Shown piece after piece: positions 37,315-40,406 of a DNA stretch of 40,406 nucleotides; the first letter of the stretch is position 1; each line of letters begins with the position of its first letter. The notes under the pieces were generated by a model. The model was given only the letters and a program-made list of their open reading frames with translations. It did not search any database and was not told the origin of the DNA. The translations under genes were made by a program, and so were the position numbers. This DNA comes from Pseudomonadota bacterium (GTDB taxonomy: Bacteria > Pseudomonadota > Gammaproteobacteria > Ga0077536), in the NCBI GenBank assembly GCA_029977665.1, contig JAPOKK010000005.1, positions 1 through 40,406 of the forward strand, written 5' to 3'.

Positions 37315-38864
37315 ACGGCCGCGGCGCAGCGGGGTGCCGCGGCGCCGGCGGTCGGCGCAACGCGCTCGGGCGCCTGGTCCCGGCGGTGCTCGCCGGCCTG
37401 CTGATGGTGCTCACGTTCGCCGCGTGCGGCGCGGAGCCGGCACGCCCCGTGTTGCGCTTCGGCCTGCCAACGGCGCCGGTCACGCTCGATCCGCGTTACG
37501 CGAGCGACGCGGTGTCCTACCGCCTCGTGCGCCTGCTGCACCGCGCGCCGGTCGATTTCGATGACACCGCCAACCCGGTCGCCGACCTCACCACCTGGCA
37601 GCGTGTCGCACCGCGTCGCTACCGCTTCTCGATCGTCGCCGGGGCGCGCTTCGACGACGGCAGCCCGGTCACGGCCGGCGACGTTGCCGCGACCTATCGC
37701 TCGGTGCTCGATCCAACGCGTGCATCTCCCCACCGTGGCTCGCTCGCGAACATCGTGCGCATCGAGGTCGTCGACGCACGCACGGTGGATTTCGTGCTCG
37801 CCGCGCCGGACCCCTTGTTCCCGGGCACGCTCGTGGTGGGTGTACTCGCCGCGGCCGACCTGGTTGCCGACGGTGGCCGCGACGCGTGGCGGCGGGGTAC
37901 GGGCGCTTTCACTCGCGTTGCCTGGCGTGACGACGGCAGTGTCACGCTGCGGCGGCGGCGCGACGGCCAGCACGTGGTATTCGTGACGGTGCGCGATCCG
38001 AGCGTCCGCGCAATGAAGCTGATCAGCGGCGAACTCGACATCGTGCAGGGCAACCTCTCGCCCGAGCTCTACCGCTGGCTGGCCGCGCGCCCCGGCCTCG
38101 TCGGGCAGCAGGTTGCGGGGTCCACGTTCAGCTACCTCGGCTTCAACCTCGCCGATCCCCTCACGGGCCGGCGCGCGCTGCGCCAGGCCATCGCTCACGC
38201 ACTCGATCGCGAGGCCATCGTGCGCCACGTGTTCGGCGGTACCGCACGCCTCGCACAGGCGGTCTTCCCGCCCGAGCACTGGGCCGGCGCTGCCGGGCTC
38301 GCCGCGCCTGCCCACGACCCCGACGCCGCGCGCCGCCTGCTCGCCACGGCCGGACTCGGTGACGGCGTACGCCTCAGCTACAAGACGTCGAGCGACCCGT
38401 TTCGCCTGCGGCTCGCCACCATCGTGCAGAGCCAGCTCGCGGCGGTCGGCATCTCGCTGGACATCCAGAGCTATGACTGGGGGACGTTCTACGGTGATGT
38501 CACCCACGGCCGCTTCCAGGTCTACGGCCTGTCCTGGGTCGGCCTGCGCCTGCCGGACATCTTCCGTCACGCCTTCCACAGCACCTCGGTGCCGCCCGCC
38601 GGCGCCAATCGCGGGCGCTACGCGAGCGAGCGCGCCGACCGCCTCATCGAGCAGGCCGAGCAGGCCGGTGAGCGCGCCGCGCGTGTCGCGGCCTACCACG
38701 CGCTGGAGGAGCATCTGCTGTACGATCTGCCTTACGTACCGCTGTGGTTCGAAGACCAGCTCCTCGTCACCCGCAGCGACATCGCGGGCTACCGTACCGA
38801 CGGCGCGGGCAGCTTCGACGCGCTCGCCGAGACCTCCAGGAAGCCGCCTCGTGGCGAAGATTGA
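37311..38864 (+). CDS. ABC transporter substrate-binding lipoprotein, oligopeptide type (SBP_bac_5)
   Basis: 517 residues from the GTG at 37311, which overlaps the rlmD stop. A hydrophobic segment ends at Cys39 (LTFAAC), so a lipoprotein is likely, though -3 is Phe rather than Leu. The mature part follows the OppA/DppA pattern: TLDPRYASDAVSYRLVRLLH, ARFDDGSPVTAGDVAATY, FNLADPLTGRRALRQAIAHA and YDLPYVPLWF. No permease or ATPase genes adjoin, so it must share a transporter encoded elsewhere or bind peptides for another purpose. It overlaps the L,D-transpeptidase gene, which suggests murein peptides as ligand. Confidence 0.88.
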   Translation: MNGRGAAGCRGAGGRRNALGRLVPAVLAGLLMVLTFAACGAEPARPVLRFGLPTAPVTLDPRYASDAVSYRLVRLLHRAPVDFDDTANPVADLTTWQRVAPRRYRFSIVAGARFDDGSPVTAGDVAATYRSVLDPTRASPHRGSLANIVRIEVVDARTVDFVLAAPDPLFPGTLVVGVLAAADLVADGGRDAWRRGTGAFTRVAWRDDGSVTLRRRRDGQHVVFVTVRDPSVRAMKLISGELDIVQGNLSPELYRWLAARPGLVGQQVAGSTFSYLGFNLADPLTGRRALRQAIAHALDREAIVRHVFGGTARLAQAVFPPEHWAGAAGLAAPAHDPDAARRLLATAGLGDGVRLSYKTSSDPFRLRLATIVQSQLAAVGISLDIQSYDWGTFYGDVTHGRFQVYGLSWVGLRLPDIFRHAFHSTSVPPAGANRGRYASERADRLIEQAEQAGERAARVAAYHALEEHLLYDLPYVPLWFEDQLLVTRSDIAGYRTDGAGSFDALAETSRKPPRGED

Positions 38865-39339
38865 GCACATCGAAATCGATCTCGCGCGCCAGCAGCTGCG
38901 TGCCATCCCGGCCGCCGGCGCGGCGCGTGTCTATCCCGTGTCCACGGCCCGCAACGGTCCGGGCGAGGTCATGGACAGCGAGTGCACACCGCGCGGGCGC
39001 CACGAGATCGCCGAGAAGATCGGTGCGGGCAGCGCGCCCGATACGGTCTTCGTCGGCCGCCGCCCGACCGGCGAGGTATGGACCCCGGCCCTTGCTGCCG
39101 CCACGCCCGGACGCGACTGGATCCTGACCCGCATCCTGTGGCTGGCCGGCTGCGAGCCGGGGCGCAACGCGGGCGGACGCTGCGACACGCGCGCGCGCTA
39201 CATCTACATCCATGGCACCCCCGACACGACGCTGCTCGGCGAGCCGGGCTCGCGCGGCTGCATCCGCATGCGTAACGCCGACGTCATCGAGCTGTTCGAC
39301 GCGGTCTGCGTCGGTACGCCGGTCGATATCCACGACTGA
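38851..39339 (+). CDS. Short L,D-transpeptidase (YkuD domain), no signal peptide
   Basis: 162 residues from the GTG at 38851, overlapping the previous gene by 14 bases. The YkuD site is seen: His121 in YIHGTPD and GSRGCIRM with Cys137 and Arg139. The position before GC is usually His (SHGC); here it is Arg135. Cys101 and Cys111 flank a Gly-rich loop (CEPGRNAGGRC) and could pair. There is no signal peptide or membrane segment, so either the start is wrong, export is unusual, or the enzyme acts in the cytoplasm. Family members of this short form are widespread in proteobacteria. Confidence 0.85.
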   Translation: MAKIEHIEIDLARQQLRAIPAAGAARVYPVSTARNGPGEVMDSECTPRGRHEIAEKIGAGSAPDTVFVGRRPTGEVWTPALAAATPGRDWILTRILWLAGCEPGRNAGGRCDTRARYIYIHGTPDTTLLGEPGSRGCIRMRNADVIELFDAVCVGTPVDIHD

Positions 39340-39479
39340 GCCGCGCGGCGCTCGGCCGGGAAGCGCGAGATTCCGTCAAACTGTGAACCCCGTCATAAAG
39401 TCGGCGGGCGCACGGCCGACACAAAGCACAGCCGTTTTCGCCCGCATTCGACCTGCCCGCCCGGGCCGAAGGAGTTCTC
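39340..39479 (+). other. Gap before the unrecognised ORF
   Basis: 140 bases. CCGTCA occurs twice (39373-39378 and 39390-39395, 17 bases apart), and CATAAA at 39394-39399 could be a -10 element, but no -35 is convincing. AAGGAG at 39469-39474 is a clear ribosome site for the ATG at 39480. Confidence 0.4.
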
Positions 39480-40406
39480 ATGCCGACCAGCACCGCGCCA
39501 CGCCCGTCGACCGGACGCCCCGTCGTCCCTGCCACGGAGGCCGCGCGCGGCCCGCTGCTCGGCCGTTTCGCCGCCGCCATCGCGCGCGCCCGTAACACGG
39601 GACCCCTGAGCCAGCTGACCACGGTCCACCCGTGCTTCATCAACGGCGTACGTACGCTGGTACACCGCCGTGGCCTGGACCGCAGTGAGCCCGGCGTATT
39701 CCAGCGCCTCAAGGCGTATGCGTTCAGCAACGGCTTCGAACTGCTCGAAGACCGGCGCAAGCGGGAACTGACCTGCCGCGACGAGCGTCGCCGGCTCGCC
39801 CCGCTGCTGATGTTCGCGGCTACCTTGCTCGGTGACGTCGCCATGGCCGAGGACGGCACGCTCAACGACGGCACGCAGGCCGTGGTGCCGACGATCGAGA
39901 TCATCGGCACCCGTACCCGCACCGACGACGGCCGCGAGTACCTCAGCGTCGGCGGCAAGCGCTTCATCTCCGAACCGATGGGCGAAGTCGAACAGATCAT
40001 GGACGTCGCCGCGACCGTGCGTGCCAGCGGCGAGCACCATCGCGTGCGCACGCGCGGCCTGTCGATGCCGAGCGAGTACACCGCGAGCTTCATCGACCGC
40101 TATGACTACACCATGCCGAAGGACTGCGGCGGTCAGCAGTTCAGCTACTACGAAGGCGATGGCTTCGCCGCGCTCGGCTACCATTCCGGAAAAGGGCACG
40201 TGGTGCTCGACGTGCTGGCCGGCGGTGGTCCGTTCTCCGCGCCGCGGCTGTGGGGCGCCTACGACCAGGTGCTGAACGCCAACATCCGCATGGACCTCAT
40301 GTTCGGAGACGGCCTCAAGGACGGCATGGGGCTGATGATGGCGTCCTACAAGATCGGGCTCATGCCGGTCATGCGCTCACGGTCGAAGAATTACTACGGC
40401 GAACTC
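39480..40406 (+). CDS. Unrecognised protein, C-terminus cut by window edge
   Basis: 309 residues visible and still open at the edge. The ATG at 39480 has a strong AAGGAG five bases upstream. Residues 1-100 are basic and polar with no signal. Residues 103-123 (RRRLAPLLMFAATLLGDVAMA) look like a signal sequence or membrane segment placed inside the protein. The rest (about 130-309) is hydrophilic with many Tyr, Gly and Met, for example YLSVGGKRFISEP, VRTRGLSMPSEY and YYEGDGFAALGYHSGKG. I do not recognise a family. The periodic Gly and Met in the last 60 residues could be beta-barrel or membrane sequence. It is separated by 140 bases from the L,D-transpeptidase gene in the same direction. Confidence 0.75.
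   Translation, partial: MPTSTAPRPSTGRPVVPATEAARGPLLGRFAAAIARARNTGPLSQLTTVHPCFINGVRTLVHRRGLDRSEPGVFQRLKAYAFSNGFELLEDRRKRELTCRDERRRLAPLLMFAATLLGDVAMAEDGTLNDGTQAVVPTIEIIGTRTRTDDGREYLSVGGKRFISEPMGEVEQIMDVAATVRASGEHHRVRTRGLSMPSEYTASFIDRYDYTMPKDCGGQQFSYYEGDGFAALGYHSGKGHVVLDVLAGGGPFSAPRLWGAYDQVLNANIRMDLMFGDGLKDGMGLMMASYKIGLMPVMRSRSKNYYGEL

Follow-up and report, generated by a model that had tools for sequence, protein, structure and literature searches.

In PMC2805444, long signal sequences are described as having one part that targets the protein and another that may be free for other functions. The same paper describes the ESPR type, found in autotransporters and two-partner-secreted proteins, as >50 residues long, with an N-terminal extension before a normal n-h-c signal peptide. 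In PMC5422565, the extension of FhaB is described as making export slower and cleavage later, and the one of EspP as prolonging the association with the membrane. DUF6647, to which we return below, has been proposed for clan MA (PMC11467057). DUF3579 (PF12112) has a solved structure (PDB 2L9D), and our literature search found no paper naming this family.

Here, we analyse a gene at the end of a window of 40,406 nucleotides, i.e. the whole stretch of DNA studied, which is the entire contig C202 of a 442-contig genome. The encoded protein starts with a DUF3579-like domain and continues through an internal signal-like segment into an unnamed C-terminal domain. Like the ESPR proteins it has an N-terminal extension before a signal-like segment, however its extension is ~105 residues long and homologous to a separate protein family, and as cargo it carries a domain of ~220 residues in place of a large type V exoprotein. 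The conserved ESPR sequence is Pfam PF13018; the window protein has no match to it at E<=10, and a miss alone is no proof. As far as tested, the architecture is one that would work like an extended signal peptide without being an ESPR by sequence. A narrow literature search for a folded domain in front of a signal found nothing, and within the literature searched the combination of a DUF3579-like domain with an internal signal is probably undescribed.

The initial annotation had reported a well-initiated gene running off the window, and this is what we find: the frame opens with an ATG behind AAGGAG and is open up to the window end, Table 1. The rest of the gene could be obtained from contig C225 of the same genome, the start of which repeats the final 47 nt of the window with one mismatch. 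The stop is at base 152 of C225, 35 codons past the window (stop included), and the complete protein has 343 aa. A genome of the same genus contains an intact 343-aa gene with 98% identity to the window gene.

Table 1. Features of the locus, in positions of the window.
Feature	Position	Strand	Evidence or remark
Upstream neighbour, YkuD L,D-transpeptidase	38854..39339	+	Pfam YkuD E=1.7e-22
AAGGAG ribosome-binding site	39469..39474	+	sequence; ATG 5 nt downstream
Reading frame	39480..40406	+	309/343 codons inside the window; remainder in contig C225
DUF3579-like domain, residues ~29-105, with basic DRRKRELTCRDERRR tail at its end	39564..39794	+	weak Pfam match, PDB 2L9D profile, hhalign
Internal signal-peptide-like segment LAPLLMFAATLLGDVAMA, residues 106-123	39795..39848	+	hydrophobic core and small-x-Ala site; putative signal peptidase I site after 123
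C-terminal domain 'a', unnamed family, predicted periplasmic	39849..40406	+	conserved; 34 more residues in C225

The N-terminal module is found on different C-domains, and we distinguish four types of relatives. Type a carries the C-domain of the window protein, domain 'a'. Type b has a DUF6647-like C-domain with HExxH (DUF6647 match at E<=0.1 in 16 of the 16 aligned), and type c is another HExxH protein with no Pfam match in its C-part. Type d has a type-a-like C-domain behind a weaker hydrophobic segment (G301, G191, G179, G386 and, by eye, G291). The window protein thus has its N-terminal module and signal-like segment in common with the clan MA metallopeptidases of type b, but its C-domain lacks HExxH, gives no match to the DUF6647 profile and is unrelated by hhalign. 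By profile comparison, domain 'a' is unrelated to both the b and the c domains. Between types b and c, hhalign joined only ten columns around HExxH with a probability of 10%, and they may or may not be distant relatives.

About 100 basic residues had been noted ahead of a hydrophobic segment ending in AMA, and residues 1-105 do have 20 K/R and 9 D/E, a net charge of +11. Pfam DUF3579 matches residues 29-88 of the window protein with 15.4 bits (E=0.026). The Pfam cut-off is 25 bits, and the match spans positions 25-87 of the 90 in the profile, therefore we call the domain DUF3579-like and not a member of the family. The first 24 positions are missing, and the IIEGVxEDGxKFRP stretch of the full-length domain, present in the stand-alone proteins, lies outside the match. 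Weak DUF3579 matches at E<=10 occur also in 7 of 14 control genomes, none of them above the cut-off, and a match of this kind does not count as evidence on its own.

A profile of 20 relatives (types a and d) matches PDB 2L9D with E=1.6e-8, and 2L9D itself is clearly related to a DUF3579 protein of the stand-alone kind (E=5.9e-19). At E<=0.1, Pfam DUF3579 is found in 17 of the 20 type-a/d proteins (best 9.5e-8) and in 15 of 16 type-b proteins. An hhalign comparison of 14 fused modules with 13 stand-alone DUF3579 proteins gave 99.3% and E=8e-21 over 74 columns, the DRR...ERR tail included. Judged from these profiles, residues ~29-105 are a real, divergent DUF3579-like domain. An unrelated upstream domain had been suggested as one half of a mis-set start, and this half holds by the 2L9D profile and hhalign.

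Both the domain core and the DRR...ERR tail of DUF3579 align with the window module. The stand-alone proteins, in open frames of 92-158 aa, mostly finish at or shortly after this tail, and the signal segment is absent in the 13 aligned. In contrast, the fused form is without the first stretch of the model and runs on into a hydrophobic segment and another domain; in the window protein the tail leads directly into LAPLLMFAATLLGDVAMA. In 19 genomes from the window's family, no stand-alone DUF3579 protein exceeded the cut-off.

The segment behind the module consists of RRR (103-105), then LAPLLMFAATLLG, then DVAMA. The most hydrophobic 13-residue window in residues 1-200 begins at 106, with a mean Kyte-Doolittle value of 2.03. 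An Asp at -5 of the putative cleavage site counts against a signal peptide here. A positive n-region, a hydrophobic core and a small-x-Ala site, i.e. the features of a Sec signal, are all present, starting at residue ~103 and not at the protein's N-terminus. Because it is internal, such an export signal may escape an N-terminal signal predictor. Of an extended signal region, as proposed in the initial annotation, the signal-like segment behind an extension stands, but the extension itself is a DUF3579-like domain. Tat export was considered and rejected. Type a and c proteins have RR before the core, but several type-b proteins do not (e.g. b_L052, b_L056, b_L096), and since the motif is not kept across type b Tat is unlikely.

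We favour, with moderate confidence, a model in which Sec exports the C-domain from the internal signal, the DUF3579-like domain forms a folded cytoplasmic extension, and cleavage takes place after residue 123. The first ~105 residues would fold as the DUF3579-like domain in the cytoplasm, and its basic tail, with RRR at 103-105, would act as the n-region of the hydrophobic core at 106-118. SecYEG would insert the core and carry the C-domain (124-343) to the periplasm. Signal peptidase I probably cuts after AMA-123, as the site itself suggests, and C216 and the Cys at 320 are probably joined by a disulfide. The DUF3579-like domain itself would remain on the cytoplasmic side, and by analogy with FhaB and EspP the module would most likely slow, time or regulate export, or dock a cytoplasmic partner.

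A serious rival predicts the same topology, namely that the segment is an uncleaved signal anchor. The protein would then be bitopic in the inner membrane, its DUF3579-like domain facing the cytoplasm and its C-domain the periplasm, e.g. as a sensor or a tether. We regard it as rather unlikely, although a folded cytoplasmic domain would be more sensible if it were kept attached. The 37 type-a, type-b and type-c proteins all have a basic stretch followed by a hydrophobic core with a 13-residue mean of 1.81-2.82, and in 37/37 no window beyond residue 150 is equally hydrophobic, as an anchor would have it. However, the core of the window protein is short, with 13 uncharged residues, and in 36 of the 37, all but c_G087, the core is followed by a [small]-x-Ala site, which random positions elsewhere in these proteins show at a rate of 34%. 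The same scan after the most hydrophobic window beyond residue 150 finds a site in 4/37. An Ala lies exactly 17 residues past the core start in 31/37 against a background of 9%; for this spacing as for the site, the 37 proteins are relatives and not independent draws. A stricter test, which requires the Ala close to where the uncharged run ends, is passed by 28/37, and the final Ala of the segment is invariant in 16/16 type-b proteins. An uncharged run of this length is no peculiarity of the segment: elsewhere in the same proteins the longest run has a mean of 15 residues and a maximum of 34.

A natural control is provided by the distant homologue in G151, which also speaks against an anchor. 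Here, the window-type C-domain lies directly behind a plain, cleavable-looking signal peptide, MKLFITALFSIISLQTQISFA. The gene starts with TTG behind AGGAG, and no DUF3579-like module was seen upstream of it in three frames. This homologue supports the export of the C-domain.

It is also conceivable, but in our view improbable, that the protein is a cytoplasmic two-domain protein in which a buried helix, formed by the hydrophobic segment, links the two domains. The weaker segment of type d would suit this, as among the three type-d proteins tested one has a permissive site at the segment and two have none. The DUF6647-like proteins without the module (G212, G220, G070), which have no obvious signal peptide by eye, would suit it as well. 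The type-d segment suggests that export is perhaps not essential, and together with the signal-less DUF6647-like proteins it indicates that such proteins may function without export. A buried helix nevertheless does not easily explain why proteins with different C-domains keep positive residues, then a hydrophobic core and then, at near-fixed spacing, a small-x-Ala site, or why G151 has a plain signal peptide.

Between the window and the same-genus genome, the ratio of synonymous to non-synonymous codon changes is 6:2 for residues 1-43, 10:1 for 44-105, 1:0 for 106-123, 25:3 for 124-309 and 6:3 for the tail. In a more distant pair (G014 and G020) the corresponding ratios are 8:11, 21:8, 6:5, 71:11 and 14:4. 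By these ratios, translation and constraint are clear for both the module (44-105) and the C-domain, while conservation is loose in residues 1-43. Synonymous changes dominate in both module and C-domain, which settles in favour of translation the question whether the frame is translated at all. An in-frame ATG, GTG or TTG is absent between codons 2 and 110; moving the start could therefore not create an ordinary signal peptide. An artefact, i.e. a wrong start or an untranslated upstream region, is hardly credible: the window's own DUF3579 score is under the cut-off and residues 1-43 are loosely conserved, but the Shine-Dalgarno sequence is good, no alternative start comes before codon 111, the 10:1 and 21:8 ratios fall in the module, and the module is conserved across families. 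The mis-set start offered earlier is not supported, as the start is well formed, nothing replaces it before the hydrophobic core and the upstream domain is conserved.

For domain 'a', searches of Pfam, NCBIfam, PADLOC, PHROGs and PDB sequences gave no significant match. The window protein gave nothing in NCBIfam at E<=10 and nothing in PADLOC or PHROGs at E<=0.1, and the C-domain profile had zero matches to PDB sequences at E<=10. The earlier statement that no family could be named therefore holds for the C-domain and fails for the N-terminus, which is DUF3579-like by profile. A match to a known family over the full length was likewise absent from these libraries, with the weak DUF3579 match confined to residues 29-88. 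As for the new membrane protein family that had been suggested, the C-domain is new within the libraries searched, and the membrane part corresponds to the uncleaved anchor, the serious but less likely rival.

Structure prediction was of poor quality. AlphaFold2 with five sequences reached a mean pLDDT of 31 for the full-length protein, and the C-domain alone reached a pLDDT of 45 and a pTM of 0.53. Foldseek against PDB gave nothing at E<=0.001. The top Foldseek match was Ivy (1xs0) with E=0.55 and a TM-score of 0.16-0.19, two more Ivy entries were lower among the matches listed, and no Ivy chain was among the VIA-align matches listed, the best of which had Z 3.0. We take the structure comparison as no result.

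The two cysteines of the window C-domain are C216 and the Cys at 320, the latter in the C225 part. Both are present in 8 and neither in 9 of the 17 signal-bearing type-a proteins. This all-or-none pattern fits a probable periplasmic disulfide, and may also reflect a single loss.

The gene is present in 5 of the 36 genomes of the window's family, two from the window's genus and three from another genus. In a sixth genome of the family, G016, the module sits on a type-b protein. Weak module matches at L020 (G002, which would be a seventh genome of the family) and L021 (G000) were dismissed as chance after reading the open frames. In a class-wide draw of 369 genomes, the module is found at E<=0.001 in at least 46; at least 12 of these have long frames of 271-487 aa and the other 34 have only frames of <=158 aa. 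Domain 'a' is found in at least 9 of the 369, seven with the module by profile, G291 with a diverged module by eye and G151 without, and type c in at least 4, all carrying the module. These class-wide searches scored at most 13, 8 or 6 candidates per genome, making all the counts lower bounds. In a phylum-wide draw of 398 genomes (module profile, E<=1e-4), the window's own genome was the only one among the candidates scored, at most 13 per genome, again a lower bound. No relative was found among viral contigs, and a query of plasmids with one type-b protein gave no match. One type-b locus, L102:5574-6272, is a truncated second copy, in which only the zincin domain, the signal segment and the end of the module are left.

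G153 belongs to an order other than that of the window. There, the module is found in 18 of 53 genomes, and we read 15 regions plus three more (two from G153, one from G268). Eight genomes (G153, G800, G817-G821, G823) have a type-a gene followed by a type-b gene on the same strand, 36-57 nt apart, and in 7 of the 8 an ORF of 132-136 aa lies upstream of the pair. The tandem linkage to a module-bearing zincin suggests an envelope protease as the possible partner of domain 'a'. A tree built from 53 modules over 76 columns is poorly resolved, with 19 of 50 inner branches open. It places the 40 fused modules and the 13 stand-alone DUF3579 on opposite sides of one branch (97/84). The 11 type-a modules form one supported group (99/93) and the 15 type-b modules another (99/95), so that in tandem genomes the modules track the C-domain type and not the genome; the tree resolves little of types c and d and of two single rows. 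The simplest reading of this tree would be one old fused lineage in which the C-domain was exchanged long ago.

More tentatively, DUF3579-like domains might be an unrecognised class of folded pre-signal modules, derived from a cytoplasmic protein family and fused once ahead of a Sec signal peptide, that control the export of several envelope proteins, those of paired protease/partner operons included, by retaining the nascent chain at the inner membrane until it is released by a cytoplasmic cue. If the model we favour is right, a whole small domain would be a signal-peptide extension common to different exported proteins. It would also give a first functional lead for DUF3579, the structure of which is already solved, and a testable system for the effect of a folded pre-signal domain on Sec export.

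The gene neighbourhoods add several observations. A YkuD-type motif is found upstream of related genes in 4/4 loci (L010-L013), and in 3 of these 4 a DUF3106-like gene is located between the YkuD-type gene and the homologue. Locus L012 (CAMCBY010000228.1) is titled a Klebsiella pneumoniae MAG; it has the lineage-specific gene and the synteny, and the species given appears to be mistaken. We also considered, and rejected, a link to type VI secretion: T6SS genes are near 2 of 4 type-c genes, none were seen by eye at a third, in the 4.2 kb of L060, and none were noticed near the window-type genes read. The two type-c HExxH genes with the module in question are L062:1938-3017, which adjoins tssA/tssB-type genes, and L055:2313-3386, ~2 kb from a TssB-like gene. 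The type-d genes of L057 and L059 are divergent beside a DUF815-type AAA ATPase gene, identified by Pfam in L059 and by eye in L057. Finally, the type-b gene with the module at L063:4251-6916 lies beside a ShlB/FhaC-type secretion gene.
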